Positions 31,173-57,572 of a stretch of DNA of 64,000 nt are shown here, one piece after another. The notes below the pieces were generated by a model. It ran no database searches, was not told the DNA's origin, and saw nothing but the letters and a program-made list of their open reading frames with translations. Both the position numbers and the translations under genes were made by a program. The stretch lies in the NCBI GenBank assembly GCA_944989445.1, contig CALYLW010001085.1:356694-420693 (forward strand), given 5' to 3'. Within the stretch, counting starts at the first letter, position 1; each line of letters starts with the position of its first letter. This DNA is from Ampullaceana balthica (Eukaryota > Mollusca > Gastropoda > Lymnaeidae).

Positions 31173-31439
31173 TCACCTCTTGGCATCCCGCTGAGAAAAC
31201 TTCTCCGAAAGAAAATCAAAAAGAGGCTGGGGAAGCGGTGAGTTTCGTTGATCTTGCCACAGCGAATGAGATCCGAATGTTGAGCGAGATCCCAGCGTAG
31301 AATGAGATCCAGATGGTTTTGATGGGGGCTTGTGGGATGGCAGCGAAGATGGCGTTGAGTGAAAGCAAACCCAGTTACAGTACTCCCTGAGGGTGGACGC
31401 CAGCTGACCGACCGTTAGGCCTGACATCATGTTGGTCAC
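31173..31439 (-). CDS. PARG-AKAP exon 17 with stop codon
   Basis: Encodes VTNMMSGLTVGQLASTLREY, matching the PARG LTVGDVYKLLLRYY helix. A Ser/His/Pro-rich stretch follows, then LPQPLFDFLSEKF and TGA. PLFDFL near the end recalls the SLFDWLL tail of AKAP11/SPHKAP. The acceptor is ACAAGAG|GT. Confidence 0.9.
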   Translation of the reverse strand: MTNMMSGLTVGQLASTLREYCNWVCFHSTPSSLPSHKPPSKPSGSHSTLGSRSTFGSHSLWQDQRNSPLPQPLFDFLSEKFSQRDAKR

Positions 31440-34400
31440 CTCTTGTATCTAGTGGCCATGCGGAGAACAACAAAATTGACTTTTAAATCACAAATTGATA
31501 AAGATGTTTATACTAGAGTTTTAATCATTGCTGACCATCCATAACTTACTGCTGAGCTGTTTCATTGACCAACATAACCATAAGAAAGCAAAATGATGAA
31601 ATTTACTTAACTGCTAAACTTCTGTCTCGGATCAATACCGTAAGAAACCTGTGTCGGCAACTGATAACTAATGGAAACTATTGATATTATTATGTACCTG
31701 TGTCAAAGACTGATGAATATTGATATTATTATGTACCTGTGTCAAAGACGGATGAATATTGATATTATTATGTACCTGTGTCAAAGACTGATGAATATTG
31801 ATATTATTATGTACCTGTGACAAAGACTGATGAATATTGATATTATTATGTACCTGTGCCAAAGACTGATCTCCAAACGTGTAGTAGATCAAGAGGGGGC
31901 TCCTGGCAACACTTGCAGCGATCCATTGCATGAGAAACTTGAGCTGTGGATCTCCCTGATAAGCGCCGCACCCCCAGTTCCCGGTGGCTATCGGGCGTCT
32001 GTATGACAGGAACTGAAACAACAGCAGAATCTCCAGATCAATCCAACAGATGAACCAGGTCAGATTAGCATGGCATCATTATGGATCATGAACATAAATT
32101 TTTGATGGGGTTAACATTGGGTGCGACGGAAGACAATTATGTCAACATTATTCCAGGTGTCATTGTGTCCATACAACCAAAAGATACCCAACACCTGCCG
32201 AAGACAAATACCCCAGATTGTCACCAGTATGTGTAATCCAACAGCTGCTGTGATAAATAAAGCTAAACCAAGTTTTTATTATACTCCCTTTATTCTCGTG
32301 CGTCTTGCTGCGATGCAAAATAGTGCAGATGGGCACTACTAGAGTTTGCAGTTGATTGACGTTACTTTGAAAGTCAAAGCTACGTAAAATAAAAAATTAT
32401 ACAAATTTTTTGTATATTTTTAAAAAAATGAAAATTTGATAGATAATTTTTTATCGTTGCCACAAGTCTGCCTGCAAAATTTCAGCACGATTTGATAACA
32501 GGAAAAGGTTAAAAAATCTATCCAAAGTTTTTCCGAGTTTAAATAAAGGGAGTAGAAAACCCAGATTTTTGGACAATAATGCTACAGAGACCACTCACCC
32601 GAAGCCACTTGTTCTTCTTGCACTGCTGCAGTGCCTCCGTTACAACATGGCTGCACAGATCATCAGCAAACTGTTCAACGCTCTGCTCAGTGTCCGCGCC
32701 CTCCTCTTCCTCGTCACCAGACTCATCCTCCCGCTCTCTCTTGACCTGACCTTGTGTTCTGGGAACGTGGTCAGCACGTGTGACAGCTTGACTGACCGGG
32801 GCTACAGTATCGTGGCTGGCTGGGCCTATACTCTCCAGGGATGACGTTGAGAGGGAGGTGGATGAGGATGACAGATGAGAGGAGCATGTTTCGTCTGACC
32901 CGAGTTCAGCTGAGCTGACACTTGACTGGGACTCGGATTTCTTTTTTCTAAAATTCTTTTTCTGGGAAGAAAATAATTGAAAACATCAAATCCCATTTAG
33001 AACAGTATAATCGAATTTTAAAGTTATCTATTATAAAGCTGATATAATTTATGAAGTATTAATCATTATTTACTTTTATGTATTCTTAAAATCATAAATC
33101 ACATTTTTTTTCTTTCTCAGCAGTAAGTAAGGTGTCTCTTCCCAACAGAATACAAGGAACCAGACATAAGCTTTCATATAGCAGCAATAGATTGCTGGCA
33201 AAGTGAAGGTCACTAGACATTAGGTGAGAGCAACAATAATTTTTGTTTGTACCCCCCTACCCATGTAAGGGACACTATCCAACCACACTACACTGGTGGT
33301 ATACTGGTGCCCATCACACTACACTGGTGGCATACTGGTGCCCATCACACTACACTGGTGGCATACTGGTGTCCATCACACTACACTGGTGGCATACTGG
33401 TGCCCATCACACTACACTGGTGGCATACTGGTGTCCATCACACTACACTGGTGGTATACTGGTGCCCATCACACTACACTGGTGGTATACTGGTGCCCAT
33501 CACACTACACTGGTGGTATACTGGTGCCCATCACACTACACTGGTGGTATACTGGTGCCCATCACACTACACTGGTGGCATACTGGTGCCCATCACACTA
33601 CACTGGTGGTATACTGGTGCCCATCACACTACACTGGTGGCATACTGGTGCCCATCACACTACACTGGTGGTATACTGGTGCCCATCACACTACACTGGT
33701 GGTATACTGGTGCCCATCACACTACACTGGTGGTATACTGGTGCCCATCACACTACACTGGTGGTATACTGGTGCCCATCACACTACACTGGTGGTATAC
33801 TGGTGCCCATCACACTACACTGGTGGTATACTGGTGCCCATCACACTACACTGGTGGTATACTGGTGCCCATCCCACTACACTGGTGGCATACTGGTGCC
33901 CATCACACTACACTGGTGGTATACTGGTGGCCATCACACTACACTGGTGGTATACTGGTGCCCATCACACTACACTGGTGGTATACTGGTGCCCATCCCA
34001 CTACACTGGTGGTATACTGGTGCTAGGCCACCAACAATACACTACCAGAAACAAGTAACTATTATTTAGTTTGTTCTGCCACTTTGGCACCTCCCCATGT
34101 TTCTATGTATTGAGTCCAGTACCCTAATGAAAATCTTAACCACTTACCCAATGCTGACTTTCACTGAGTTCTCGGGCTGGGCACCTGGATCCTGACTCCG
34201 ACTTGCTCCTCATCTCAAAGCTCAGGTACTGGCGAGGGGAGATTTTTGACGGCACTTGTAAGGTGGATGACGAGGCGTGGGGTGGAGATGAACGAAACTG
34301 AAAAGGCGATGGCGAGGAATGTCTCTTAGCGTGACCGGGCGTCGCGCATGACTCAGCAGTTGGACGGGTTTGTGGCTGTTTCGGTCTGGCGCCCCCCCAG

Positions 34401-37400
34401 GCTTCAGAGGTGGGCTTGAATGTAGGATGGAGGTACTGCTGTGATGATGGGGCGACACTGAAAGACGAAGCCCTCCTCTCACCGGAGGGGCCGAATCTTA
34501 TCCTGTGGCTGTATGATGAATGGGGTTTCCCCGAAATGTCTGGAGCTGAATCTTTTCTCCGTGGAATGTTTCTGGGCTTCGAATGTGCACAGGATGTTGG
34601 TGCTCCTTGCATGCCTCCCTGTCCCAGCTTGTTGGCTGCCGACACCGACCACAGGGCAGGCGTCAGTTTTTCCTCGCTGCCGCTGTTCCCGCTGGTGTCG
34701 GTGGGGACGCTGAGGCTGTCCGCGTTGACGGTGGCCAGAAGTGCGTCCCGCATGATCTGGTCGGTGAGGTTCTCGGCAAACAGGTTGACATCCTGCTCCT
34801 CCCTGCTCATGTAATCTGGGTCACACCTCAGCACACACACTGCCTCTTGAACTACACGGCCAGCAAAGTAGCTGGCATAGTCCTGATTGGAAAAAAATCT
34901 TGAGAATAATTTATGTTTTTTTGTTTGTTTTTTAAATCCTTAATATTAACTTGCGGTGTCTGTTTGATTGTTTGCTTGCTTGTCACCAAAACTTTGGATC
35001 GATTTTTAACCCACTTCCTCATAAGCTAGCGAGCTGAAATTTTGCAGGCAGACTCGTGCCGACGATAAAAATGATGTATCTAAATTTCAGATAAATCGAA
35101 TGTACCGTAATTAAATTAATGAATTTTTAGATTATCTTTATTTATCTCTATGTAACATGCTAACTTATTTTTGCTATAGTGTCGTGGTGCGTATTATATT
35201 GAACAACCTTTCCTGTCGCGCAATAAGGTGCGTATTTTATTGAGAAAACTTTTTATAAACATATTCCTGATCGGTGCGCATTATGTTAAACATGTTTTAC
35301 GACACAACTACAATTTTGTATTTTTGGATGGTCTTGAGCTGCGTATTATAATGAACATTCTTTTATTTATGTCTCGTACATAAAGGATTTATAGTCAAAA
35401 TCTTGGTTTTTTACATTTAAAAAAAATTTAACTCTAAATCATACAAAGGCTGTGCACTCAAAATTGCTTTGTGCATGCTTGAATCTCATTGTTATATTTG
35501 AACATCTAATCTGATGCAAGTGGAAAGCTAGAAATGAGCCCCAAATGTACACTTAACATAGCACAGTAAATATTCTCTTCAGACACATCAAAGCTATGTG
35601 AAAGCTATCTGTGGACAACAAAGATTAGATAATGTGGAATGCTATCAATGAACAGCAAAGAATAGATTTTGTGTAAACTATCAATGGACAGCAAAGAATA
35701 GATTATGCGAAAGCTATCAATGGACAGCAAAGTATAGATTATGTGAAAGCTATCAAATTAAGGCGAAGCATAACTTTTGTGAAAGCTACCTCTGTACAAC
35801 AGACAATAGATTGCGTCAAAGTTCTCTACCTGCAACTCCTCCTGACTGTGCTGTCTGTTGTACTCCAGCTGAAACTCATCTCCTACAAACTTGGGCGGCG
35901 GGAACCAGTATTCTGTCTCGGAGCTGTCTGACTTTCCCTGTCTGGAGTCCCTGCTGCGAGATCTGTCCAGCTGGGGGTGTCTCCGGTGTGACCTCGATGA
36001 CTGAGACATGCTGCAAGCACTGCTCAGGGGATATTGTTTGAATCATCAAAAGCAGGAATAATACATTCAATTACCAATAAAAAAAGTTTAAAACATGCAA
36101 TGACCAAAAACAAAATAGTGCAAACACATTAACTCATTCGCCCCTGATGCGACAAAACACATCTTTGACGGTTTAGTACAGATGTGACCAAATGCGTCTG
36201 TCGCTGTCGCATAGTGACGCAGTCTCGCAATTTTAGTTAAAAATAGCATTAACATCTTACTTTCTTCGAGACTTCCAGCTATTGTGTGATTCTATGAGAT
36301 TTCAATATTAAAAAATTGAAGTTTTTATCTTGTTTCACTTCACTTTCAATCCATGTGTGATTTAGTTTGATGCATCTCTATCTGGCATGTATTTAACCAA
36401 GGTGCCAAAAATCGCATTATCAGTCTTCAATCTTCATTTTTCCTCAGTGAATGTTGTGTTATTTTTATACATAGTTCATTTCTTAATGTATTAATATTTT
36501 ATTTCTTGAGATAAATCAATGTCTTAACTCATTAGCTCCTGATGCGACTAAATGCGCCCTTATAGGGGTCCGCACGGATGCGCCCAAATGCGTCTGTTCG
36601 CCTAGCGACGCACTATCGTATTTTTAGTTAAAAATAGCACGAAATCTCGCTTTCCTCGAGACTTCCGGCTAATGCGTGATTCTACGAGATTTCAATAAAC
36701 ATCACCGGATGTTTTTATCTTCTTTCACTTTCGATCCATGTTGTGAATTAGTTTGACGCGTCTATATGGCGTATGTATTCACCCGAGGTGCCGAAAATCG
36801 CGTTATCAGACTTCAATCCTCATTATTTCGCAGTGCATGTTATATTATTATTAAACTTAATTCATTTCTTGATGCATTAAACATTTTATTTTTTAAGATA
36901 AATGAATATCTTTAGAAAATAAAAGCATTTCTCTAATGGAATCAAAAGCTTAACGAAGTTGCTTCCCTTTTGTCCGGAATATGAAATAGATTCGGAAGTA
37001 GCCCTTCAGGAGCTAATGAGTTAAGAAAAGAAACACATTTTCCTAATGGAATCAAAAGCTTAACGAAGTTACTTCCCATGTGTCAGGAAAATTAGTAGAT
37101 AAGGAAGTAGATAGTGTCACTAAAGTAATCTGCCCAGCCAGACCTTGTGAAACTTGTGTTGAGCAACTCATTCTCCAGGTTGGCCAGGGTGGAGTCTCGG
37201 AATATACTGACACTACTTCGTCTGGATCCTTGAATAATGATGATAATAATGGAGGGATAACCAGAAAGTTTGACACAACAAACAAAAAATGGATGCATAA
37301 GAAGAATATTAATATAGTATATCACAAAGAAGAAGTTTTTCTATTGTTCAAGTTCAAAAACTTAAATATTAAATACATAAGAAGAATATTAAATAGAAAA

Positions 37401-40400
37401 TCACAGAGATGGACTTCTATTGCTTGAGTTCCAAAACTTAAATATTTATAGGTTCCTATTGATATGTTTGTTTAATTGTATTTGCTTCCAATCAAATGTA
37501 CTCATTTATAAAAAATATTGAGGAATAACACTTTGAGTGAATCTAGTGTGTGATAGCTGAATTGTGTAAACACATTGTGCGACATCCAAAATGTGTGAAC
37601 TAGTGCCTGACAGCTGAAATGTGTGAAATTAGTGTGTGACAGCTGAAAGGTGTGAACTTAGTGTGTGACAGCTGAAAAGTATGAATTTGGTGTGTGACAG
37701 ATGAAATGTGTGAGCTTAGAGTGCGACAGCTGAAATGAGTGAACTTGGTGTTTGACAGCCAAAATGTATGAACTTAGCATGTGAGACAGCTGAAATGAGT
37801 GAACTTAGTGTGTGACAGCCGAAATGTATGAACTTGGCATGTGAGACAGCTGAAATGGGTGAAATTAGTGTGTGACATCTGAAATAAGTGAACTTGGTGT
37901 TTGACAGCCGAAATGTATGAACTTGGCATGTGAGACAGCTGAAACGTGTGAAATTAGTGTGTGACAGCTGAAATGTGTGAAATTAGTGTGTGACAGCTGA
38001 AACGTGTGAACTTAGTGTGTGACAGTTGAAATGTGTGACAGTTGAAATGTGTGACAGTTGAAATGTGTGACAAAGCACCATATGAAAGTTGAGTTGTGCT
38101 AACCTGTTGAGGAGGAGCTGGCATGTGAACCAACTATCACCAACTCTGGCACTGACGTGTCCGCCTTCATCAGCTCCTCTGCGAACCTGGACAAGACCGG
38201 GTCCTTGAACCCACACGAGTTTCTCCTCTGGTCAAACGAGTAGCCGTCCAAGGAGCCCCTGCGCCAGGTTTTCCCGCACCCGATATCATCGTCCGTCCTG
38301 GACAGTTTCTTCATCTTCTCCTCAACCGTCCCGCCACTGAACTTGTTGTTATTGAAGGCCTGGAGGGAGAGCGTAACGCTCGTCTGGCACGGTTCACTGC
38401 TGCGCCGCTCGTAGGTCTTGATCTGGGGGCTGTGATCCACTTTCAAGTAAGCGTTCGTCAGAGTTTCACGGCTCATGGGCTTCCTGAAGAAAAGTCCGAT
38501 GCTGGGTGAAACAGATCGCCGGGCCCGCCGCGGGCTCTCTGAAGCTTTGGTTGATGAACTCGAGAAAATGTTGGAGGCAAAGCTGTCGTAGTGACTGTGA
38601 ATTCTACTTCCTGGGGAAAAATGTCCGGTTGTATTATTAGAACTCTACAAAACAAGGAACACTGATTTATAAAGTGCGTTAATGGAATTTTCACTGTAAG
38701 CTCTATTTAAATAAATCACAAATGTAATAATAAAAGAAATTTTGAAAGACACATCAACCCATTTAATGAGACCTAAAAGATTAGTTTAATTCATTCCCTA
38801 AAGGTGAAAAACAAAAAATAGGAAAAATTTCTTTGTTCCCAATCTGTTTGAATTTACTGTCATGCTCTCTTGATGACGACTAAATTTAAACGCCCAGTTA
38901 CAGAGATGAAAAACTATTATTAAAACTCCCAGCCTCACCTGTAGAGTGAGCCCCTGTATCAGATGAGGAAATGGTTCCATGATAGCAGGAGGACCCCGGA
39001 CTGAGAGCCTGGACATCCATGCTGTCTGATATGGTCTGGAAAACTTGGCTAACGATGGACGCGGCAGCCTGGTAGGCGTCAAGGGACAGGTCAGCGTTGG
39101 TCAAACTCCTACGCCTCTGGCCTGGACCACCGACAGGCTGAAAGCTGCCCTGAAGAGCTGTCGTGTGAAAGGCTGAGAGATCCCCGGGGGTTCTGGAGGC
39201 AGGGGGTGATGACAAGGGGAGGTCCAAACTACCTCTCCTCCTGACGGGCACAGGGATACCGCTGCTGGCCACCCTCTGGAATGTCGTGCCCTTGGCGTGG
39301 CTTGTGTACAATGCCTGGGGATGTGCCAGTTTGGAGGATGAGGAGCTCCCCGGATTTTCTTCAACACCCTCTTTGAACTTGACCATCTTCAGAGAACCTG
39401 ATGACCGCTGCAGGCCGGTCACAGACTTCAAACTGACGCCAGAGGCAGCTGTGTCTGATTTTGACGGCAAAATACTTTTAGATTTGGGCCGGGCAGACCC
39501 CGCCTCGTCAGCAATTATGTCCCTGGAACTAGCCCCGGGAACCTGGAAGTCTGCCTGGCCATCAGAGGTGGAGGCCACACCCCCAGAAGCTCCGATCTCC
39601 TCAAGGTGCAAGGAGGAATGCCTGTCCTGGTCATACTCTTGGCTTTCAATCTCTGCGATCACATGGAAGAAGACTTCATTGATGATCTTGTTTGCGAACC
39701 AGTTGTACACCTCGTCTGAAATTTCCTCTTGAAAAATTGGAGTCTGGGAGACAATCTCAGCCCCTTCTAGAACACCCTGACTCAAGGACAACTCTGCCAG
39801 GGTGTTAACAAAGCGAATAAGCTTGGGCCGACTTAGTGATGTCTGTGGATTGTTGTTTTCCAGATTCTTCTATTTGTTTGGCCCACCTTTTCTCCTCATT
39901 TTTCTTGGAACCTCCCCTGCCCTGCCTCTTGTGGGCAGATTCATGTGCGGATTCCTTGAGGTGCCGTGACCTCCTCTCACGCGGAGGTGCCGCCACGTCG
40001 GAGAAGACATACCGACTTCTGTGTGCCCTGAACAGTTTCTCATCTCGTTCCCGTGCCGTCTGCTTTTTACTCTTCCCGGGCTTGACCTTTTCTTTCTCCG
40101 CAGAACCCGGCGTTACATCAAAATGATCTGGTTGCCTTGTCCTGCAGTGAGAAGATCCAGGCATCGAGCCCTTGGCAGGATCATGCCATTTCTTTGATGA
40201 GCTTCCGAATTTAGGAATGCCGGAAGTCTTGGTGGGTCCACTGGCCCCGCTGGACAGGTGAGGGATTGACTCCGTCGAGCTGGCAGACACGGCCTCGGCC
40301 TCTCTCTCCGCGGGTCTGGACGCCTTGGTTTGCTTTGAACGTGTGGCTGGGCATTCAGGTGTCTTTGATGTACCAGGCTTGATGAATTTTTGGGGGATCT

Positions 40401-45677: not shown

Positions 45678-48600
45678 AAATAAAAACATGTTTACACTAG
45701 AGCAGGTCGTGTTGTTGGTACAGATCCAACAGCCCTTAAATTCAAGGGGTTACACTGCTACATAAAAAATAGCTACAAGTTTAAAAATACAAAAAGTTTT
45801 AACAAAAACTTTACTTTCAAAATTAATTAAACATTAAAAAATTTCTTTAAAGGATCAAAGCAGCTTATATGCACCGTAATGTCATTAAATGTTGTATTTG
45901 GGTTATGAATGTTTCTCATTGAATGAGTTTATAATTATGTGTGTTACTATTTTTATGTAAAGCGCTGTGAGCCCAGCTGCTTGCTGGAGTACTGCGATAT
46001 ATAAATTATCAAACCATTATTATTATTTAAGATATGCCAACGAGTTAGAAAATAAAGATATGTTTTTAAAAAGAAAACAAAACAGTGGAATGATTTTCCA
46101 ACCTTGATCAACTAGGGCAAGGCCATCGTCAGTGGCAGGTAACCTACAGAAGCCAATCAAAGCCTTGTTGAGGTCCCTCATAACAAACGTCTCTTCATAC
46201 TGCCTCAGTGTGGGGACGTCCCTGTAGGACAGGGCATCTATGGCTACCATCCGCAGGGTCTGATCATATACAAGACAGCAACGACAGTTTAGATGTATCG
46301 ACAATAAAAGGTCAGCTTTTTAAAAATTAAATTTGAAAATTTCCCAGAATTAGAAAATATAGAGTGAATTATGAATAGATAGGAAACATGGTGTTATGTC
46401 TTATGAGCAAGGGAACTGAGGACTACTGGCATTGTCATTAAAATCTCCTACCACCCTTTAAGAAAAAACCAATTGTCCAGTGCAGCTTACTTTGTTGGCA
46501 TTGTTTTTAAAGATGACCATCCAATCGTTGAGCCTAGTACAGCTTACCTTGTTGGCAGTGTTCCTGTTGTAGTGACCAGCAAACTCCAGGGAGTCAGCGT
46601 AGCCAGTGCAGCAGGAGAACTGCTCAAAGCCTGACACTGAAATGGCTTCATTGTGTTCCATGCTCTCCATGAATAACATGGCCGTCATCAACTCTGGGCA
46701 CACGCAGAACTTTATTTCCTCCTGAATATAAAAACATCCAATTTAAAGGGTCTTTGATCGAACAACAAAATTAATTAAGGATTCCTAGACTTTATGTGGA
46801 CAAAATATTCATGAATATTTGAAAATTACAGATGATATAAGCAAGTTGTTCAAAAGCTGATACTGATATCACCATTCCAGAAAATAAACAAATGAACAAC
46901 CCCGTAAAAACAAAGTTTTTGACTATAAATCCCCAGGCCTGCCAACCTGCCAAGAAAAAAAATCTGTAGAGGGGTCTACGCGCGGCGTTGCAGCACCCCA
47001 CGGCGCTGGTTTAAGAACTACATACTAAATAAATATAAAGTAATAAGTTAAATCCATTATCTTTTAATTTAAGTGTCTACAGAACACCACAGAATACTGG
47101 AAATGTTTACATTGCATTCAGATACACGAGAGAATAACCATGTTTTTCACATATGAACAGAGGCTGCATAAGAGTTCAGCTTTCCAGCATTTCCCTTGTG
47201 GCCTTTTGAACTTTAACAGTTCTTTCGTCAATTGAAGTTAGCTTTGCTTTTAGATAAATATTAGTCTTTAGTTAGAAACTTTAGAAAGAGTATCATTCAT
47301 CTGAATTAATGATTGCTCTTGTTTCATTGTAATTTTTCTGAAAACATTTCTTTGAATCTGGCATTAAAAAGATAGGTATTAGAAAAATTGTTATTTCTTC
47401 CAAAAAGTAGGATGGTAAATAAAACTTTCCATCTCATATCTGAATTTCCTATTCCTTCAACAATAATAACAAAGTAATTGTTAACAGATGAGTCAGATGT
47501 AGATTCACTAACTTTTACTTTACTAATCAGCAGTTGTAATTTTTGCATTAAACTATTTTTATTGTTATTGAACCCACCACTTTCAAAAGATAATTAGGTC
47601 TGGCACAGATTGCAAATGTTTCGCCACGGCCACAGGCGAGTGTTTTTCCAAATACTGATTCGAAAACGAATGTCCCAATGCCGTCTTTTCTTTATTTGTT
47701 TAGTTAGACTAGTCTTAGTACTAGTACAAACCGTTTTTAGCAGCGTTCCTTACAAATGTATCCATTTTTTTTTAAAGTCACAGAACAGCTGAATTGTAAA
47801 ATATTTTTTATTAGGCTGGTAAAAGGAATAATGTACGATCGGATGGCCAACGAAGAAATAGTTAGATATCGCGGTTCGCTTGGATAACGGAAGTACAGGA
47901 AAAAACCCAGGAAGTGGCATTTTCATTTTCGAAATACATCACCGCCATTATTAGTATTAGCTTTTTATTTTTATAATTTTTTCGCATTCGGATTTTTCAT
48001 GGTGAATTTTTTTTTCGGAAAATCGGGAGATTAAGGGTCTTATCGGGATTTCGTAAGCATGGGTAAAAAATCCGTATAATCCCGAAAAAATCGGGAGGGT
48101 TGGCAGGCCTGATAATCCCTTATACATGAGACACAACTAAAAGTATTGACTATGTTCAAACGCGACAAACATTTACAGACTTAAGTCGTCTTATCTCCTC
48201 TGGCTTTAAAACCGGTGGAAGGGGGTATGGACATCGACGGGTGGCGTAAGCGTGTTAACTCAACTGGCACTTGGAAGAAAAACAATAACAAACTGTGAAA
48301 TTGAATTACAAATGTTATATAGAGATAAACTAAAAATGCATTAATTTAATTACGGTATGTTCGATCAATCTGAAATTTTGATACGATGCATTGTTAGGTG
48401 ACACGAGTCTATGTGCAAAATGTCAGCTCGATAGCATCACGGGGAAGTGTGTCATTTTTTTACTTTTGTTTTTCCACCCGCCCGACGACTAATGACAGAC
48501 AAGATTTCAAAGTTAATATGAGGGATTTAAAAAATGACCGACCACGAGTTTTGTTGACCCCCCTACAGTAAGTAAATAAAACATCAATATGGAACATTTA

Positions 48601-51600
48601 AGGAAAAATTATTTTTAATTTAAGGAGTTTTCTAGGAACTTAAATGATTTTTTCTTCAAATTCTTGGAAATTTCCAAAAATTCTCAATTTTCAGGAGACT
48701 TAATACATTAAGTGATTGAGTAATTGGAAATAAGTGAATTATTTTTCTATCTTATACTTTTGTACATGATATTATCTCGTTAAATTATTTTATTTTGAAG
48801 CTCAAAATTATTTCTATCTTTAATTTTTTAGAAAAGAACATTCAATTACCTTTACGTATACAATACTTGGGGTCTACCTTTTTATGAAAATCTCAGGATT
48901 CAGATTTGACTGTTTTAAAGTGTATTTGTTTTTGTTCCTTGTGTGATAGTCAGTAGAATAGAAACTATAAACCCCAGAAGTTAAAGAGTTAATTTCTCAA
49001 TGTTGTATCAGCAGTTTTTTTGAGGGGGTGACTTGTTGACTAATGTTGCAGTGTCCTAGGTCTGGTACCCGGGTTCCCGTTGACAGGTCTAGCGACTCGC
49101 TATCATTGACTAATGTTGCAGTCTCCTAGGTCTGGTACCCAGGTTCCCGTTGACAGGCCTAGCGACTCGCTATCATTGACTAATGTTGCAGTGTCCTAGG
49201 TCGGGTACCCAGGTTCCCGTTGACAGGCCTAGCGACTCGCTATCATCGACTAAGGCTGCAGTCGCCTAGGTCGGGTACCCGGGTCCCCGTTGACAGGCCT
49301 AGCGACTCGCTATAATTGACTAATGTTGCAGTGTCCTAGGTCGGGTACCCAGGTTCCAGTTGACAGGCCTAGCGACTCGCTATCATTGACTAAGGCTGCA
49401 GTGTCCTAGGTCGGGTACCCGGGTTCCCGTTGACAGGCCTAGCGACTCGCTATCATTGACTAATGCTGAAGTGTTCTAGGCCTTACCTGCACCCTTGCCC
49501 TTCCCAGCACGCCACCTCCAATGGACTGGTTAGCGAAGTCTACCTGATGGGGGAAACAATCCAAATTGAAAACATTTCATTCAACCTTAAGGAATATAAC
49601 AAAACCTATCTGAACAACATTATATTTAAGCCCCCTGGATCATTTTACTATATCCTTAATATTATTCTGGAAGCCCTAACATGTAAACAAGAGGCCAGTA
49701 TATCTGAACAACATTATATTTAAAAAAAAACAGCTGTTAATATGTGTAGCATAATTGTATACCTGTATGACCTCTGGACCACTGTCTTCTATGACACCCT
49801 GAGGAAAGACCTTGACAGAACAAAGGTTCATCTCACACTGGGCCAACTCATCAAACTTGAGGATCCAGGTGGGTGTTACGACCTGAGACAGGGAATATAA
49901 AGGTGGGTGTTATGACCTGAGACAGGGAATATAAAGGTGGGTGTTACGACCTGAGACAGGGAAATATAAAGGTGGGTGTTATGACCTGAGACAGGGAATA
50001 TAAAGGTGGGTGTTATGACCTGAGACAGGGAAATATAAAGGTGGGTGTTATGACCTGAGACAGGGAAATATAAAGGTGGGTGTTATGACCTGAGACAGGG
50101 AAATATAAAGGTGGGTGTTATGACCTGAGACAGGGAATATAAAGGTGGGTGTTATGACCTGAGACAGGGAATATAAAGGTGGGTGTTATGACCTGAGACA
50201 GGGAATATAAAGGTGGGTGTTATGACCTGAGACAGGGAATATAAAGGTGGGTGTTACAACCTGAGACAGGGAAATATAAAGGTGGGTGTTATGACCTGAG
50301 ACAGGGAATATAAAGGTGGGTGTTATGACCTGAGACAGGGAATATAAAGGTGGGTGTTATGACCTGAGACAGGGAAATATAAAGGTGGGTGTTATGACCC
50401 GAGACAGGGAAATATAAAGGTGGGTGTTACGACCTGAGACAGGGAAATATAAAGGTGGGTGTTACGACCTGAGACAGGGAAATATAAAGGTGGGTGTTAC
50501 GACCTGAGACAGGGAATATAAAGGTGGGTGTTACGACCTGAGACAGGGAATATAAAGGTGGGTGTTACGACCTGAGACAGGGAAATATAAAGGTGGGTGT
50601 TACGACCTGTGACAGGGAAATATAAAGGTGGGTGTTACGACCTGAGACAGGGAATATAAAGGTGGGTGTTACGACCTGAGACAGGGAAATATAAAGGTGG
50701 GTGTTACGACCTGAGACAGGGAAATATAAAGGTGGGTGTTACGACCTGAGACAGGGAAATATAAAGGTGGGTGTTACGACCTGAGACAGGGAAATATAAA
50801 GGTGGGTGTTACGAACCGAGACAGGAAAATGAAAAGTTGGGTGTTACGACCTGAGACAGGGAAATATAAATATTTTAAACCAGCGTAGATTAAAAAAGTT
50901 CAAGAAAAATAAATGTCACTCAGTGGACAGAAAGGTGAAAAAGAACCAGTGGACAGACAGGTGGAGACCACTGTCCCATCAGTTCATGTACAATGTACTT
51001 AAAGAAAAAAATGCCAAACAAATATTGTTATTTCAGTTTTATGCGGAACTATCGCCTCGGTAAATAGTGCCCACTCAAATAACCAAATATCTAAAAATAT
51101 CTTTAAAAATACAATTATGGAATTCGAAAAATATCAAGATTTGTTTACTTATAAATTGTTAAAAATATTACAATTGTAACATAATTATATAAATTAATAA
51201 TTTGAAATTATAAAGATATAAAGTTAATAAAATAATTTTCTAAGACAATTTCGTGTTTACTTCTAGCGACTAGCACCACAGCCCCATATGTACTAAAAAA
51301 TTTAAACTGTTTAAATATCGAATAAAATAATAAAATAAATTCAAATTTAAGTAAATATAATAACTAAAATTAGCAGCTACTAACAGTTACAAATTAATAA
51401 GTTACATATTAACAGGAGAAACCAAATTTACAAGTAATATATAATGAATTTATTGATTTAAATTTTAATAAATTAATAATCCATTCTTTAAAGATGATCT
51501 GTTATGGAATTAATTCAATAATATTAGGGGTGCGGAAATTATCGATTAAGCTCTCGATTAATCGTTAAATTTTTTTAATAGATTAAAAATATTTTAATCG

Positions 51601-54600
51601 ATAAAAATTCGATTAAAATTAAAGAAAATATTTATAATATTTTGTAAAAATTTTATTAATAAATAATTAATTATTTATAATAATTTACATATTTTTTTAC
51701 GTACAAACATCTCCCGCGTAATATTAACATTAATTTTATTAATTTATGTGTACCGGCAGACTTAAACTAAACATGGCTGACGGCATTAGCGCAGGGAAAC
51801 AGGGGAAATAACTCAATAAAATAAATAAAAATGTCAATTACCTGTTTTTTGTTACTTCCCTTGAAATGTTCAGTTTAATGACGTCATAAATTTCTATTTT
51901 TGGCTTTAATCGAAATTATCGATTAATTAATTGATATTTTTTCAAAAGTTAACGATTAAATTTAAATTAATCCATAACAGCCCTAAATAATATACTTAAT
52001 TTAGACGGCTAAACCCTGCACAGTTGATTATATTAAATAGCGTAATGTACCGTGTGCAGTATTGTTGTCCCTGGCAACCTTTACTATTCATTCTACCTCA
52101 TTGTGACTCCTACTACTACTATGTCTTCAATAGTTTCATTCATCAGTTGTAGCCGTGTGCAAAAACTATTTAGCCATTGGTCAGTGTTGTTAAATTAATT
52201 AGTCCTGAGCCAAAGTTGAAGGTTCAAAAGGAGTTCCTAATATTATTGTACATAATTTACAGAGAACAGTTCACATTGTCATATGTAGGTCATGATAGTT
52301 GTGTGAACTGAACTTGTAAACACAACATAAACTTAGTTTAAAGATAAATTTTAATGTTAATACAAACTGAAACGATTTATTGATATAGAATATTTTTAAA
52401 AGAAAATAAAGAAATAATAATTTTATTTACAGCATTGATCCTGAAAATAAAATCATTATTAAAACGAGAGATAAAGTGCGTGACGCGAACAGCAGAATTT
52501 AGGTCAGAAAATGTGGAGGAAAAATGCATAGGGCAGGGGATTGGGACATATTGAACCTCAATTTAAAAATTCATAACTTTAAAACTGCAAATCCTAAAAA
52601 TATAATTTTGGTGTTAAAATTTACTTAAAAATCAGCTCTATTCAAATACACCTAGTAATCAATTTAAAAAAAAACTTCTTTACCAAAGTGCCTACATAAT
52701 ATCTTTGCATGAAGAGTGTAGACGGTGGTTAAGTAAACAATAAAAAATACAGTCAATAATAATTTAATAAACGAAACTGAATACCTGAAATTAAATATTA
52801 TTTGTAGAAAATGTGAAAGCTAAATACAAGGTGATTATGGTTTTGCGAAATAAAGCAACAGCTAATCGTATTCAAAACCGAATTTAATTCGGATTTCCCA
52901 TTTTCGTTTAACAACCCAAGTACTCTGATTCGCACCCAGATCCGGCAAATGGTACATCTAACTATTCGGATTTGGTACCCGGTAGAAAATGCCTACCCGT
53001 TGGTCCCACCTTAGACCCGACTCCCCAAATTCTCAACAGCTCAGTCAAAAGGATTCTCTTCTAAATCTCTTAACTGGATACATGCGATATGATACAATTG
53101 ACTTTGACAACCCAGGTCAGAATCTAAAGGTACTTTCAAAAACTTTATTCCAGCTGGTCTGCTCGGTGTATTAATCAGCTGGTGTCATATTACTTCTTCA
53201 TCACATTTGGGATCTAAAGCTTTGTTAGTTCCTTTGCTATCACACCCGTTCAGCCACCAACTAACCAAACCAGTCTTTATACACCGGCCAAAAAAAATAA
53301 AGAACCAAATAAAAAAAATAAAAAATTGAATTCAGTATAGTAGTTACCTTTCTGGTAAAAACAATATTGCCAGTTATTGTCATTCCTCTTTCAACGACAC
53401 ATTCAAAATAATGCAGTATGCAGCGCAGCTTGGACACTTGAGACGGTCTGAAATATGTCACAAGGAATGTAAGTTTACATGGGAAATTTGAAATGAACAC
53501 TACAACATATCGTCATCACATATATATGACCTAAGTAAGTTGATTCTCAATTAATAAAATGCATTTGAACATAAATCTACTTTTTTAACATTTAGTATTA
53601 ACAAAATAATGACAAGATAAATATAAATTATCTTAATCTTTGATTTATGCTTTAATGCAAGACTCCTTATAAAAGATATGTATAAATCTTGTATATACAT
53701 ATATTTTCATAAGAAGAGGAACGCCTTCACTTTTTCATTCGGAAATAAATATTTAAAAAAAAAGTATAGTGAAGGTAAATCTTGTTTAAAAGGTTGCATA
53801 ATACAGGTTACCACTTGTAAATAGATTTTTTTAAAAACATGTGTAACTTACAACTGGAGGTGCTTGAAAAATGTGGTGAAGTTGACAATATTCATATTAG
53901 ATGTGATCTCCCTATTTCTCTCCGGGAACAAACACAGGAAAAAACATGCGACAACCGAGCCGACAAACTGCCTGGACAATGATGTGCTGCCTCCTGCACA
54001 AATTTAAAAAGAAGGGATCAGAGAAATGGACAAAAAAGATAAATGTATAACGCTGCACTTAAATGACCATATTAAGTAAATATAAAATTTTGTAGTATTT
54101 TTTTTCAAACTGAAAATATAATGGCTTCCCAGTAAGCAGTACATGCGCCCCCCCCCAGTGGGTGGAAAGTTTTCAATATTTTTTTTGTTTGGTTGGGAAT
54201 AAAGGTGGGAGGGTTGTGAAAACAAATTAATGACAAGAACAGAGAATATTGGACTTTTAATTTATGATATTTGTTTGAGAGACTTATTAAACAGCTTGTA
54301 CTGGGTGAGACTTGGGCAACCAGTTTGTATAATGTGAGACTTAGTCAAATAGCTTGCATTGGCTGTGAGAGTTAGTGCAGATTACAGAAGATGTCGGGAA
54401 ACAATTGATAGTAAAATACTTTTTCTGCGAAAATGACCAAGTAAAAATTAAATGTTTGTGAAACCCCACAATGGGGCAAATCTCTTCATTTATAATTATA
54501 AATGCTACATTATTAACTTTTTTTATTCAAACACTATTGAATAATTTTGTACTGCTTGCCTTTATGATCCTAAAAATTGAATGCATGAAAACTAACAGCT

Positions 54601-57572
54601 ACAATTATGCACATTAGGAAAAAAATTAATTATCTTTTTTAAGCATTGAGCTATAAAAATTAAGGGGACTCACCATTCTGTTTTCTACTAAACAAAAGCT
54701 TATCTTTGGGTCTAGAGTCTTCTATGCTCAGAGCCATCTGGATGATATTTGGTAGAAGAAAATAAAGAAAATTTTCCCTATCAGACTTGGAAATCCTCTT
54801 TAAGTACTTCAACATCCCGTACCACACGCAGCTCGGCTCCAGCTTTTTTTTTACATTGGACTGAATCTGAGACTTGAGACGATTCAAGGGGCTTGACGAG
54901 GAAGCGCTGCCTGACCTCAGGGTGGGGATGGAGCTGTACACGGTGTGCATCAGTCGGCTGAGTGGATTGCTGCACGTGGTGCTGACAGGCCGATCGGCTT
55001 GAATCGTTGTGTAGATTGTCTGCATGAACCATCCAGTTTCCTGCAAGTGCAAGTAAAAGCACCTTTATTACTTTTATTGATTTATCTCACAATGCGAAGT
55101 TTACTAAATTTAAAGAAGTAAAAGTAAAATCCACATAAAATTGTTCTCAAAGACAGAAAAAAAATAATACCAGGAGATCAATTTGGAAAAAAATATTTTT
55201 CAAATGTTTCCAGACGTGTGAGCCTTTTAAAAAATAAAATGATACTAAAAATGTGTAAAGCAAAGGTCCAACCTGATGTTGATTTCATTAAATCTGATTT
55301 TATTTCAAAACATTGCTTCCAAGCAAACCTTATTTACAGTAAAAAAAAATTTATTTTGAAATACTTTTTAGACTAACAAACAAAAATTATAGAAACAATA
55401 AAATGATCAGATTTCTCTGTCAAAGTTTATGAGTAGCTTGTTCATCTAGGCAGGCCTGTGGTTTCTACACTTGATTCTTATAAGTTGAGTGGCATTGATG
55501 TGGACTAACTCAATAATGTAGTTTATACTTCAACTCTCAATAATTGTTTTCCTCTCCATTGATGGTGTCATCAAACCACAACATCAAAAATGAAATGAAA
55601 TAATTGGCAAAAACCTGTTTCACTCTTTGATTTATGACATTAATTTGAGTTGTTCTTACATGAATGTATTCCATAACCAATATGTACTTTAAAAAATGAT
55701 AATGAGTTTTTGGTAACCTAATTATTGGTTGTAATATTACCATTTCAAAGTGCTGATTTTTTAAAATATTTATTATTTATTAAATCCCAAATTTCACATT
55801 CCCCTTAGCAAGGGTCAAGATGACGAGATGTTTGACTTGAGTGAAATAGAAAGTTTATCTAAGATAAAAAATGACAGATACTGTCTTCTCTCTTCCAGTG
55901 ATCTTCGAGACTTCCGGCTATTGTGTGATTCTACGAGATTTCAATAAAAATTACTGGATGTTATTATCTTCTTTCACTTTCGATCCATGTGTGAATTAGA
56001 TGTATTCACCCGAGGTGCCCGTAAATCGGCATTTTTTCACAGTGCATGTTAAATTATTATTAAACTTAATTCATTTTCTGATGCATTGATCATTTTATTT
56101 TTTAAGATAAACGAATATCTTTAGAAATGAAAATAAAGGTTTGTATCGAGAATCGACAGTGGTTTTTATATAATTAAATAAAAAATTATTATACTTTTAA
56201 AAGTTTGTTGTTGCTTTGTTCATTGTTACCAGTAAGATACGTGACTGTGACACTAACACGCGCGTGACGATGAAATCAAATCACTTTCTTAATATTCCAG
56301 TACATGTATATAATATTATTAATATCACTTTTGTCGTTCGAATTCTGATAAGGAATGATTTTTAAAAAAATTCGCCTAGACTTGTTGCCGGCCGAGGTCT
56401 AACACACAGCCCACAGCGTGCTGTGATCAACGGTCAAGGCCGCAATAGTTTTATTTATATTATTACAAGACTGAGGAAATTTGAGAGCGTTCTGATGGTA
56501 ACAGATATCCTGCACGTCAAAAGCATTAAACTTAAAATTACCATATTGATATGTTTATCTATTATTTTTTTTATTCGCTGATTCGATGGGCATTGCAAAC
56601 GCTAGTGTCTGCTAATGGGACTAGGCGAGGCGAAAACTTTGACCTTTTAACGCATGCGCAGACAATTGTAAACTGGTAACTTATTTTTAATTTAAATGGA
56701 ATCGAAACATGACAGAGACGTAATCAAAGTCCTTTACTTCAGCATAAATATATATATATATAAATTCCCGATTAGTCATAACTTTTCCAGACTTTCAAGG
56801 CAGATAATTTTTTTTAAAAGAATTCCCGACTTTTTCCCGTTTTCCTGAGTGGGAACCATGGTTATATTTAATTTTAAACGGTCCTTAAAAACGAACGGTC
56901 ATTACAACCTTAGGAAAGAGCGAAGAAATATTAGGGTTCCGATACGATTCCGATTAATCGTCCCATCACTAATTAACGCTAACTAATTAATCACGTACAT
57001 AAAGAAATTTCAAGCACATGTTAATATTTTGCCGCCATATTGGTTTTCGTTTTAACTCGATCATCGGTTATGTCGACGCCATTTTTCATACCCCAACGCC
57101 GTCGACTTAACCGGTTTCGACTGTACTTAATAACATTACATTACATGCAAGGTGGACAGAGAGATCAGAATAAAAATGTAGTTAGAAACCACATGGTGTG
57201 ATTTCAGATAATGTTAACAATATTCCTGATCATAAAGAACCTTTGAAAATTATCAACAAATCTGCTTACCAAATCTAAGATCACCCAACATACTTTTATT
57301 TATGAAGGGTGCACGATCATTATGACTACTGATATAATAAATTAACATTACTAATTCCTAATGGACATCATAAATAATAATATATAAAATAAAAATACAA
57401 ATAAAGACTGTATGAAATTTGAAAATTCTTATCCTCAAACCAATATCTCTTTTTACCCCACCTGATCAGTTATCCTTTCTTTCATTAGCCGACCTTGTAG
57501 GTCTAGCAGCAGTTCCTTTATCAAGTACCAGTTTGGAAGATCAGGAGGCAGCTTCACTTCGGCTGGGCCCAT
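31173..57572 (-). CDS. PARG-AKAP composite: poly(ADP-ribose) glycohydrolase split by an A-kinase-anchor region, 17 exons
   Basis: Exons in transcript order: 57462-57572, 54674-55040, 53852-53993, 53348-53447, 49763-49882, 49487-49543, 46548-46721, 46103-46259, 43828-45632, 38939-41874 (one-base frame break near 39.8 kb), 38104-38610, 37144-37228, 35830-36010, 34148-34882, 32599-32961, 31854-32012, 31173-31439. All introns are GT-AG and phases agree throughout except at that break. About 2,750 residues. Residues 1-409 carry the PARG accessory and first macrodomain half, including VDFANQSIGGGVLGRARVQ-EE. Residues about 410-2,610 are Ser/Pro/Gln-rich with at least five helices matching A-x-x-h-h-x-x-h-h-x-x-h. 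The last 141 residues are the second PARG half (TGNWGCG, IYYTFGDQ, LTVGQL) plus a tail ending PLFDFL. PARG removes poly(ADP-ribose); AKAPs tether PKA. A dual role is inference. The start codon is uncertain. Confidence 0.88.
31680..31853 (-). repeat. 39-bp tandem array of 5' splice-site copies after PARG-AKAP exon 16
   Basis: On the minus strand each unit reads CATCAGTCTTTGACACAG|GT followed by ACATAATAATATCAATATT. The exon itself ends GATCAGTCTTTGGCACAG|GT. Four further donor copies follow the real one. 39 is divisible by three and the frame stays open through all of them. Confidence 0.92.
31854..32012 (-). CDS. PARG-AKAP exon 16: second half of the PARG core
   Basis: 53 codons encoding [20 protein letters not shown] then QWIAASVARSPLLIYYTFGD and QSLAQ. 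It aligns with human PARG [27 protein letters not shown]. Substitutions are Phe-to-Tyr and Gly-to-Gln in GAFGGD. The QWIAAS stretch is also what the AKAP11/SPHKAP tail has at this position. The donor ACAG|GTACAT starts a 39-bp tandem array. Confidence 0.95.
32262..32572 (-). repeat. Diverged copy of the AAATCC dispersed element
   Basis: TACTCCCTTTATTCTCG at one side and TAAATAAAGGGAGTA at the other, with CTGCCTGCAAAATTTCAG inside, as in the copy at 34931. It is intronic. Confidence 0.55.
32599..32961 (-). CDS. PARG-AKAP exon 15: acidic stretch and anchoring-type helix
   Basis: 121 codons without an ATG, so easily missed. A basic opening (KKNFRKKKSES) leads to a Ser-rich run, an acidic tract (ESGDEEEEGADTEQ) and VEQFADDLCSHVVTEALQQC, then KKNKWLR. 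The acceptor is TTCTTCCCAG and the donor CGG|GTGAGT, with phase 0 at both ends. Confidence 0.9.
33290..34023. repeat. 31-bp minisatellite, about 24 copies
   Basis: The unit contains ACTGGTGGTATACTGGTGCC and CATCACACTAC. Because 31 is not divisible by three and the unit has no stop in any + frame, three long overlapping open frames appear. They are artefacts. It lies in the intron between exons 14 and 15. Confidence 0.97.
34148..34882 (-). CDS. PARG-AKAP exon 14: two anchoring-type helices
   Basis: 245 codons, phase 0 at both ends. It opens DYASYFAGRVVQEAVCVLRC, in which A-GR-VV-QE-AV-CV-L is a full consensus match. It then has VNLFAENLTDQIMRDALLAT, a near match with the F-A-x-x-L lead-in typical of AKAP11/SPHKAP. 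The remainder is Ser/Pro-rich with short basic clusters. The acceptor is TTTCCAATCAG and the donor TTGG|GTAAGT. Confidence 0.9.
34931..35416 (+). repeat. Copy of the AAATCC dispersed element
   Basis: Starts AAATCCTTAATATTAACTTG and ends ATAAAGGATTTATAGTCA. It shares the GTGCGTATTATATTGAACAA core with the copy at 12285-12800. It is intronic. Confidence 0.7.
35830..36010 (-). CDS. PARG-AKAP exon 13
   Basis: Encodes SMSQSSRSHRRHPQLDRSRS (Arg/Ser-rich), then ETEYWFPPPKFVGDEFQLEY and NRQHSQEELQ. The acceptor is TGCTTGCAG and the donor CAG|GTAGAG. Confidence 0.85.
36133..37110. mobile_element. TTAA-flanked MITE, host copy split by a second copy
   Basis: The left end CTCATTCGCCCCTGATGCGA at 36133 follows TTAA. 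The body continues to 36527 and resumes at 37025 with AAAAGAAACACATTTTCCTA, homologous to the matching point of the inner copy. Its right end is worn. Another fragment lies at about 55885-56120. Confidence 0.75.
36528..37020. mobile_element. TTAA-flanked MITE inserted into another copy of itself
   Basis: 493 bp with perfect 15-bp inverted ends, CTCATTAGCTCCTGA and TCAGGAGCTAATGAG, and TTAA on both sides. A TTAA duplication points to piggyBac-type transposition. It is intronic between exons 12 and 13. Confidence 0.85.
37144..37228 (-). CDS. PARG-AKAP exon 12 (small)
   Basis: 85 bases encoding GSRRSSVSIFRDSTLANLEN then ELLNTSFT. It starts in phase 1 after TTATTCAAG and ends in phase 2 at AG|GTCTGG. 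It is required to reconcile the phases of exons 11 and 13, which otherwise do not join. Confidence 0.82.
37540..38090. repeat. ~30-bp tandem array
   Basis: The unit contains GTGTGACAGCTGAAATGTGT and GAACTTAGT, about 18 diverged copies. The array ends 14 bp from the exon 11 donor. Confidence 0.93.
38104..38610 (-). CDS. PARG-AKAP exon 11
   Basis: Encodes GSRIHSHYDSFASNIFSSSS, basic Ser-rich sequence, then FKDPVLSRFAEELMKADTSV and PELVIVGSHASSSSTG. The FAEEL helix resembles the F-A-x-x-L helices of AKAP11/SPHKAP. The acceptor is TTTCCCCAG and the donor AACAG|GTTAGC, with phase 1 at both ends. Confidence 0.85.
38939..41874 (-). CDS. PARG-AKAP exon 10: largest insert exon, with VNTR and a frame break
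   Basis: Starts EISESLQKHSHGVIEEEGG after TTCATCCAG, followed by YASQMVTSAVRNGVATGV (near-match anchoring helix). A nine-copy 16-residue repeat follows, then a basic Ser-rich region. The first frame stops at 39805. Coding character continues one base over, from about 39840, as RPKLIRFVNTLAELSLSQG. The second part has two full-match helices, NWFANKIINEVFFHVIAEI and AYQAAASIVSQVFQTISDSM, plus KMVKF, a possible PP1-docking motif. It ends in phase 1 at ACAG|GTGAGG. The break may be an assembly error, a true lesion or an undetected intron. Confidence 0.8.
41240..41665 (-). repeat. Coding VNTR, 48-bp unit, nine copies
   Basis: Each unit encodes MPVHVPKVASSIPTPE (Q at the last position in some). 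The array is wholly inside PARG-AKAP exon 10 and in frame. Nucleotide identity between copies is very high, implying recent expansion or homogenisation. Confidence 0.97.
42364..42575. mobile_element. Short hAT-type MITE
   Basis: Ends CAGCGGTTCGCATCTTGAGG and GGTTGGGAACCACTG, with an exact 8-bp duplication CTTTAGAC. Intronic. Confidence 0.88.
42856..43161. mobile_element. Short hAT-type MITE
   Basis: Ends CATTGCTTTTCAAAGTGG and ATTTTGAGAAGCACTG, with an exact 8-bp duplication ATCTAAAT. Intronic. A similar end at about 10868 (CAGTGCTTCTCAAAGTGG) may be a broken relative. Confidence 0.88.
43828..45632 (-). CDS. PARG-AKAP exon 9: first large insert exon
   Basis: 602 codons. Near the start it has AAGMVTSVICDAFQRA, a full match to the A-x-x-hh-x-x-hh-x-x-h anchoring-helix pattern. 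The rest is Ser/Pro/Thr-rich and probably disordered, with degenerate ASIPEHG/ERG copies and a long Ser/Gly tract near the end (GARSSGSCGGPNSSSNSTWG). It starts in phase 1 after a (TA)n tract and TTTGTGCAG, and ends in phase 0 before GTAAGA. Confidence 0.85.
45650..45680. repeat. (TA)n microsatellite next to the exon 9 acceptor
   Basis: About 14 TA dinucleotides, 15-45 bases upstream of the acceptor in transcript orientation. Confidence 0.95.
46103..46259 (-). CDS. PARG-AKAP exon 8: PARG core up to the insertion point
   Basis: Encodes TLRMVAIDALSYRDVPTLRQ, then VMRDLNKALIGFCRLPATDD. It aligns with the human PARG IVAIDALHFRR...RELNKAYCGF block. It ends DQ plus one base before GTTGGA. In ordinary PARG, TGNWGCG follows within about 15-20 residues; here the AKAP-like insert follows. 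Confidence 0.95.
46478..46562 (-). repeat. Duplicated 5' splice site of PARG-AKAP exon 7
   Basis: The exon ends ACTGCCAACAAG|GTAAGCTG. Fifty-seven bases on in the transcript AATGCCAACAAAGTAAGCTG appears. The intervening frame is open (VSCTRLNDWMVIFKNNANK), so use of the second donor would add 19 residues. Confidence 0.8.
46548..46721 (-). CDS. PARG-AKAP exon 7: catalytic glutamates and adenine-stacking tyrosine
   Basis: 58 codons starting EEIKFCVCPELMTAMLFMES, then HNEAISVSGFEQFSCCTGYA. The opening EE aligns with human catalytic Glu755/Glu756, and the Tyr of TGYA aligns with Tyr795. Another nearby tyrosine (EQY in human) is Phe here. It ends AACAAG|GTAAGC; this donor is duplicated 57 bases further on in the transcript. 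Confidence 0.95.
46893..48533 (-). repeat. AAATCC dispersed element interrupted by a hAT-like insertion
   Basis: AACAACCCCGTAAAAACA to GACTATAAATCCC at 46895-46933, then, after the insertion, ATAATCCCTTATACATGAG to ATGAGGGATTTAAAAAA. Minus orientation, intronic. Confidence 0.75.
46934..48111. mobile_element. hAT-like element, 1.18 kb, with CAGGCCTGCCAACC ends
   Basis: CAGGCCTGCCAACCTGCC at the left and GGGAGGGTTGGCAGGCCTG at the right. Flanks ATAAATCCC / ATAATCCC are consistent with an 8-bp duplication that lost a base. No intact transposase is seen. Confidence 0.75.
49046..49481. repeat. 70-bp tandem array, six copies, beside the exon 6 donor
   Basis: The unit contains GTGTCCTAGGTCTGGTACCC and TAGCGACTCGCTATCATTGA. 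The last partial unit runs to within about six bases of the PARG-AKAP exon 6 donor. Confidence 0.95.
49487..49543 (-). CDS. PARG-AKAP exon 6: PARG signature micro-exon
   Basis: 57 bases encoding VDFANQSIGGGVLGRARVQ, flanked by CCCCATCAG and GTAAGG. Together with the EE that opens exon 7 it forms the GGG-(6-8)-QEE hallmark of PARG. It is too short to show in a simple reading-frame scan and was found by looking for the signature. Confidence 0.95.
49763..49882 (-). CDS. PARG-AKAP exon 5: start of the macrodomain
   Basis: 40 codons, phase 0 at both ends. Encodes VVTPTWILKFDELAQCEMNL, CSVKVFPQGVIEDSGPEVIQ. The GVIED..G...Q segment precedes the PARG signature. The acceptor CTGTCTCAG|GTCG is the last copy of a roughly 28-unit tandem array. 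Confidence 0.92.
49883..50868 (-). repeat. 34/35-bp array of 3' splice-site copies before PARG-AKAP exon 5
   Basis: On the minus strand each unit reads TTATATTTCCCTGTCTCAG|G TCATAACACCCACC. The exon itself begins CTGTCTCAG|GTCGTAACACCCACCTGG. About 28 copies of acceptor plus first 15 exon bases precede the real exon. Confidence 0.96.
50869..53347. other. Long AT-rich intron 4 of PARG-AKAP
   Basis: No exon recognised. About 51529-51986 has hAT-like character: the left part AGGGGTGCGGAAATTATCG and the right part ATTAATCCATAACAGCCCT are roughly inverted, with internal ATCGATTAA runs. Target duplication is unclear. Confidence 0.45.
53348..53447 (-). CDS. PARG-AKAP exon 4: PARG accessory domain
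   Basis: Encodes LPSQVSKLRCILHYFECVVE then RGMTITGNIVFTRK, equivalent to the PARG KLK.LLHYF....P.G.V.F.R block. The acceptor is TATTTCAG and the donor AAG|GTAACT. Confidence 0.92.
53852..53993 (-). CDS. PARG-AKAP exon 3: PARG accessory domain
   Basis: Encodes GGSTSLSRQFVGSVVACFFL then CLFPERNREITSNMNIVNFT and TFFKHLQ. This is the counterpart of the PARG segment with LSQ.QIASLLANAFFCTFPRRN. It starts in phase 1 after TTTGTGCAG and ends in phase 2 before GTAAGT. Confidence 0.92.
54674..55040 (-). CDS. PARG-AKAP exon 2: PARG helical accessory domain
   Basis: Starts ETGWFMQTIYTTIQ, matching the WELIQ region of PARG. After a Ser-rich stretch it reads YLKRISKSDRENFLYFLLPN and IIQMALSIEDSRPK, corresponding to the human block ending LLPKIVKLAL. 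The acceptor is CTTGCAG; it ends in phase 1 before GTGAGT. Confidence 0.9.
55041..57461. other. Intron 1 of PARG-AKAP
   Basis: Contains a partial copy of the TTAA MITE family near 55885-56120 (TCTTCGAGACTTCCGGCTAT) and a short (TA)n tract at 56750. No exon recognised. Confidence 0.5.
57462..57572 (-). CDS. PARG-AKAP exon 1 (first confident coding exon)
   Basis: 37 codons from the first in-frame ATG, encoding MGPAEVKLPPDLPNWYLIKE and LLLDLQGRLMKERITDQ. It ends in phase 0 at CAG|GTGGGG. VKLPPDLPN resembles the VKMP..N segment before the PARG accessory domain. Upstream bases in another frame are also open and end in TAA overlapping this ATG (TAATG). The true N-terminus may therefore be longer if a base is miscalled, or the upstream frame may be a uORF. 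Confidence 0.65.

Follow-up and report, generated by a model that had tools for sequence, protein, structure and literature searches.

The window, by which we mean the whole 64,000-nucleotide stretch of the Ampullaceana balthica contig analysed here, carries on its minus strand, from 57572 to 31173, a gene of the poly(ADP-ribose) glycohydrolase (PARG) type with a predicted spliced product of about 2,760 residues. A sequence-only reading of this DNA had described a PARG catalytic domain divided by an A-kinase-anchor region of some 2,200 residues, and had named the PARG blocks on either side. All of these blocks were found on the minus strand and in the order it gave. The predicted exons are listed in Table 1. 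Elsewhere in the window, a gene for selenium-binding protein (SBP56) has exons on the plus strand at 16044-19943, convergent with the PARG gene, and a 32-bp tandem repeat of about 71 copies with a strong GC skew occupies 2757-5035.

Table 1. Predicted exons of the PARG-type gene in the window, in the direction of transcription
Feature	Positions	Strand	Basis
Exon 1, putative start ATG at 57572	57462..57572	-	start like the Bulinus and Physella N-termini
Exon 2, PARG helical domain begins (LLPNIIQMAL)	54674..55040	-	PF20811 match
Exon 3, PARG helical domain	53852..53993	-	splice model and Pfam
Exon 4, PARG	53348..53447	-	splice model and Pfam
Exon 5, PARG; acceptor formed by the final unit of a 35-bp minisatellite	49763..49882	-	splice model
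Exon 6, PARG signature VDFANQSIGGGVLGRARVQ	49487..49543	-	splice model
Exon 7, EE of the signature and TGYA block	46548..46721	-	splice model
Exon 8, VAIDAL...DLNKALIGF; first PARG half ends; phase 1 out	46103..46259	-	splice model
Exon 9, insert begins, phase 1 in; Ser/Pro-rich	43828..45632	-	splice model
Exon 10 (exons 10 and 11 of the sequence-only reading); one-base-class frame change near 39831	38939..41874	-	orthologues continuous
Insert exon CGFKDPVLSRFAEELMKADTSVP	38104..38610	-	splice model
Insert exon GSRRSSVSIFRDSTLANLENELLNTSFT, overlooked in the sequence-only reading	37144..37228	-	counterpart in Bulinus and Physella
Insert exon 13 DSSETEYWFPPPKFVGDEF	35830..36019	-	start at 36019 needed for phase
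Insert exon, two PKA-type helix patterns DYASYFAGRVVQEAV, FAENLTDQIMRDAL	34148..34882	-	splice model
Insert exon, last PKA-type helix pattern QFADDLCSHVVTEAL	32599..32961	-	splice model
Exon 16, second PARG half begins (...YYTFGD)	31854..32012	-	splice model and Pfam
Exon 17, last; LTVGQL block and stop	31173..31448	-	splice model

With the exon at 37228-37144 included and exon 13 begun at 36019, all splice phases close except at the frame change near 39831. The earlier count of seven insert exons in consistent phase therefore kept its number and lost part of its identity, as two of those exons merge, the exon at 37228-37144 is added and one frame change is left. The merged pair is better read as one predicted exon, 41874-38939, containing the frame change, given that the Bulinus and Physella orthologues read without interruption through the site matching 39831. 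A 55-base intron between the two parts would be in phase, but it deletes residues that the orthologues retain and is less likely. The frame change itself is more simply explained as a sequencing error or an allele. It could also be taken as a sign that the gene is a decaying pseudogene in Ampullaceana balthica; this is highly improbable, because the remaining exons are open, the splice sites are usable, the catalytic motifs are intact and the gene's branch, next to Bulinus and Biomphalaria in the tree, is short (0.17).

Tandem repeats lie in and beside some of these exons. A 35-bp minisatellite of about 29 copies (49867-50870) lies directly upstream of exon 5 and includes 26 copies of CTGTCTCAGGT, the last of which is the exon 5 acceptor, so that many decoy 3' splice sites stand ahead of exon 5. 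A 39-bp repeat at 31679-31870 runs in five copies from the end of exon 16 and duplicates its 5' splice site; as it is in frame (13 codons per unit), length variants are possible inside the second PARG half. Within the insert there is a coding 48-bp minisatellite with PVHVPKVASSIPTPEM units (41244-41661), and Bulinus has different 13-residue repeats near the same place. A 386-bp repeat in 1.8 copies (36207-36912) is found inside an intron of the insert region.

When the insert was removed from the product, Pfam PARG_cat_C (PF05028) was matched at 3.6e-70 (236.2 bits, cut-off 26.3) over profile positions 2-206 of 207, and PARG_cat_N (PF20811) at 3.9e-22 (79.1 bits, cut-off 25.6). Against the PDB, the joined halves matched 15 distinct PARG chain sequences, the best at 8e-58. 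The sequence GGG-X6-8-QEE is the catalytic signature that defines PARG, and it is intact in the window product as GGGVLGRARVQEE; TGYA and TGNWGCG are intact as well, and we take all three to be catalytic or ligand-binding motifs. The product thus has the helical domain, the macrodomain and the signature of PARG, and differs from PARG in that its macrodomain is not contiguous: 2,231 residues of the spliced product separate NKALIGF from TGNWGCG, close to the separation first proposed. In the 1.1-Gb genome we identified two PARG loci (five exon matches among ten scored candidates), namely the window locus and one on contig C8. The C8 copy has AYCAF, 20 residues and TGNWGCG in one open stretch and is therefore an unsplit PARG, and its spacing agrees with the 15-20 residues that had been given for ordinary PARG.

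A homologue search with the assembled product, in which 8,000 candidates sharing the most words with it and of at least 1,489 residues (a length rule) were scored, gave 20 proteins. NKAxxGF and NWGCG occur together in 17 of these, 1,062 to 2,655 residues apart, so that the same order, with both halves around an insert, is found in molluscs and also in amphioxus. Named sources include Bulinus, Physella, Plakobranchus, Batillaria, Babylonia, Littorina, Argopecten, Pecten, Mizuhopecten, Mya, Sinanodonta, Ruditapes and Branchiostoma, which we take to be gastropods, bivalves and amphioxus (three lineages were checked and the others are presumed). The remaining three are a partial Biomphalaria protein, another Branchiostoma floridae model with neither motif, and a protein of 3,113 residues that matches PF00443 and PF05028. 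GG..QEE is present in all 20, with GGC for GGG in Bulinus, and NWGCG in 17. Outside Euthyneura the BLAST alignments covered 7-16% of the query, which suggests that little beyond the PARG halves is conserved. For three of the homologues, P0007, P0012 and P0013, which are 1,622, 1,525 and 1,521 residues long (source code lgn), the contigs that encode both halves measure at most 5,280, 5,985 and 4,649 bases. To be intron-free on such short animal contigs suggests that these are assembled transcripts.

These results bear on whether the locus holds one gene or two. An AKAP-type gene nested in a PARG intron, with exon 8 spliced directly to exon 16, would account for the Ser/Pro-rich insert exons, which are unlike PARG; Met codons in exon 9 could provide a separate start, and a weak alternative exon 8 donor (CTA|GTTGAT) is by eye in phase with exon 16. 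However, the fitting exon 8 donor ends in phase 1, in which exon 9 carries on; when this donor is joined to exon 16 instead, the frame shifts and TGNWGCG is lost with either of the acceptors that were tried. In addition, 17 of the 20 homologues run through, including three whose contigs span 4.6-6.0 kb, and a separate unsplit PARG is present elsewhere in the genome. A nested gene is thus very improbable, and the favoured prediction from the splice phase, the order in the homologues and the short contigs is a single protein in which PARG halves flank a long insert, as the sequence-only reading had supposed.

In a PARG tree of 22 rows, the 19 split rows, from molluscs and amphioxus, are set apart from the three canonical PARGs (two PDB chains and the C8 copy) by a branch with support of 100/100, and the amphioxus rows fall outside the molluscs (91/86). 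A duplication of PARG before the protostome-deuterostome split would fit this topology; as the tree has a midpoint root and only three canonical PARGs, it shows the separation without proving or dating such a duplication.

The sequence-only reading had noted anchoring-type helices in the insert. A PKA-type helix pattern, written after such helices had been noticed, occurs five times in the window insert, compared with a mean of 0.06 and a maximum of 2 in 1,000 shuffles. Exon 10 contains two of these patterns together with 16-residue coding repeats, and exon 9 has a possible amphipathic helix, DVAAGMVTSVICDAFQRA, recognised by eye and outside the pattern. The pattern was found two to six times in all 14 homologues tested, Plakobranchus being the lowest with two, equal to its own shuffle maximum, and three times in each of three SPHKAPs (residues 201-1400). 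In the Pfam searches both PARG domains exceed their cut-offs with the halves joined, and no AKAP family does so in the window insert; PF05716 (AKAP_110) gave no match in the window product, P0018 or P0006. A second feature, seen in some inserts, is a phospho-FFAT-like motif: 6 of 17 split rows have it 19-43 residues past the first PARG half, Babylonia as EDEFVTASESLDEE. In three of three SPHKAPs a motif of this type, EEDFLTASEHLEEE, lies 31-32 residues past the corresponding point. The other 11 of 17 split rows, including those of the window, Bulinus, Physella, Plakobranchus and amphioxus (two rows), have no match to the phospho-FFAT pattern; the amphioxus sequence DDDFHTAFGSFEEE comes near to one.

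SPHKAP has been shown by experiment to anchor type I PKA, its motif just described (F212, T214) is required for co-localisation with VAP, and AKAP11 is called its paralogue (PMC10460453). FFAT-like motifs in two AKAPs are reported to target VAP (PMC3261905). We compared the split PARGs with the best 120 of 1,201 matches of one protein search, all of which have PF05716 and nearly all of which are named SPHKAP (the exceptions are P0044, P0049, P0101 and the sturgeon protein P0140); these are close orthologues and not independent tests. AKAP11 was sought in this search, and no protein of that name is among the best 120 of the 1,201.

A profile built from 17 rows of the second PARG half matched all of these 120 at iE < 1e-3, the best at 48.1 bits; the best of 2,400 shuffles reached 6.0 bits (one below 1e-3) and the reversed control -1.4. 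In hhalign, the C-halves of split PARG (10 of 17 split rows, the window excluded) and SPHKAP aligned with P 98.6 and E 6.6e-16. The C-terminal region of SPHKAP scored 60.7-124.8 with 18 of 18 split PARGs, the window C-half having 60.7, versus 44.3-56.2 with the three canonical PARGs. Searching with Pfam profiles, the sturgeon protein reached PARG_cat_C at 9.9e-7, but this score adds up a segment that is present three times in its unverified gene model, and PARG_cat_C was not reached at E 10 in the mouse and bilby SPHKAPs. A protein search for vertebrate AKAPs with the P0005 C-terminal region returned only four proteins, all split PARGs, and a 77-column tree of the C-halves with SPHKAP gave no resolution, the SPHKAP branch being long. 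On the profile evidence the C-terminal domain of SPHKAP is homologous to the second PARG half.

The similarity at the N-terminus is weaker. A first-half profile without the FFAT region (18 rows) matched 47 of the same best 120 of 1,201 at iE < 1e-3 (top score 12.8 bits, compared with 2.8 for the highest of 2,400 shuffles and -4.0 reversed), and with the FFAT region included it matched all 120 (best 10.9; shuffles 3.7; reversed 0.4). With the reciprocal N-half profile, 8 of 20 proteins scored below iE 0.01, seven of the eight in register, compared with 23 of 2,000 shuffles and none of three canonical PARGs; its best real score of 5.0 bits is below the best of the 2,000 shuffles, 7.4. In hhalign the N-halves gave a non-significant result (P 1.6%, E 0.03, with 10 of 17 split rows). 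The N-half scores of SPHKAP with split (50.2-77.3) and canonical PARGs (35.2-51.2) touch, the C8 PARG at 51.2 being inside the split range. As single queries, the Argopecten, Mya and Babylonia proteins matched both SPHKAP ends collinearly in 46, 12 and 22 of the best 120 of 1,201 targets, the N-end stretches being weak (best shown iE 0.0039), and the Sinanodonta query found five targets in that set; neither amphioxus protein, used as a phmmer query, matched any of them. Along the SPHKAP alignment the positions of CPEL, NEA, IDA and NKAxxGF follow the PARG order, and GGG..QEE, TGYA and the C-terminal TGNWGCG are lost. Homology of the SPHKAP N-terminus to the first PARG half is accordingly supported, though less strongly than that of the C-terminus.

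The two families share the second PARG half, PKA-type helix patterns, a similarly placed phospho-FFAT-like motif in 6 of the 17 split rows, the window excepted, and a weak, largely in-register N-terminal match; they differ in that SPHKAP is without the catalytic residues and the window product, P0018 and P0006 are without AKAP_110. From these comparisons SPHKAP is very likely a decayed split PARG. The helix patterns, which lie far above the shuffles, together with this relation to SPHKAP, support the prediction that the insert tethers PKA.

Part of this relationship is already in print. PARG-like C-termini were described in human SPHKAP, AKAP3, AKAP4 and AKAP11, with the N-terminal part judged lost (PMC11377751), and a cyclostome gene, CGG08, with PARG_cat and AKAP_110 is listed as a case of domain shuffling (Table 3, PMC11788884). 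CGG08, which we compared by its description, has both domains in one gene, and the split goes unmentioned in that description (PMC11788884). Both reports could be read to mean that vertebrate AKAPs gained the C-terminal PARG piece alone by domain shuffling, the invertebrate split PARG being an independent fusion, and the weak N-half similarity would agree with this. Yet the collinear N-half, PKA-type helix patterns and C-half are found in both families, the phospho-FFAT-like motif is at a similar distance in some split rows and in SPHKAP, and the SPHKAP C-terminus is closer to all 18 split PARGs than to the three canonical ones, so we consider such an origin quite unlikely. The earlier statement that no published description was known is thus only half right, as the relation of AKAP C-termini to PARG and the cyclostome domain pair have been published. 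The literature searched, with subscription journals mostly outside it, contained no paper on split PARG in invertebrates, and what is apparently new is a conserved split enzyme of which SPHKAP would be a relic.

We suggest that the locus is most probably one gene for a split PARG whose halves reclose around the insert, which would act as a PKA scaffold. The two macrodomain halves would fold back together into one active glycohydrolase, and the loop just before TGNWGCG would have grown into a probably disordered scaffold of 2,231 residues. Its several amphipathic helices may bind PKA, such that the flexible loop could hold several PKA holoenzymes, and in some relatives, not in the window gene, a phospho-FFAT-type site may attach the scaffold to VAP on the endoplasmic reticulum. 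One scaffold would thereby hold both PKA and an active PAR/ADP-ribose hydrolase. The split PARG might instead be catalytically dead and serve only as a PAR-binding scaffold, as proposed for vertebrate AKAP C-termini. Catalysis could suffer from a loop of 1,000-2,700 residues next to the active site, Bulinus has its GGC, and vertebrate SPHKAP is without these motifs; but all 20 homologues keep GG..QEE and 17 of them NWGCG in proteins of which little outside the PARG halves is conserved, which makes a dead enzyme unlikely. Returning to the active split enzyme, vertebrate SPHKAP, and by paralogy AKAP11, would descend from it via loss of the catalytic residues. It is likely, if less so than the reclosing of the halves, that the second PARG copy of an ancestral bilaterian was opened and received a PKA/VAP scaffold in its loop, that molluscs and amphioxus keep the working enzyme, and that SPHKAP and AKAP11 are pseudoenzyme descendants with the dead halves at both ends.

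If this is true, PAR turnover and cAMP/PKA signalling would be linked in one polypeptide, and an enzyme domain would have tolerated one to three thousand inserted residues next to its active site from a time before the mollusc and chordate lineages separated. The invertebrate orthologues would be predicted to be active PAR glycohydrolases. It would also give an evolutionary origin for SPHKAP and, by paralogy, for AKAP11, a bipolar/schizophrenia risk gene (PMC11952666), and the N- and C-termini of both would be predicted to form a single macrodomain-like fold. In early bilaterians, PKA anchoring and ADP-ribose signalling would on this view have been a single machine.
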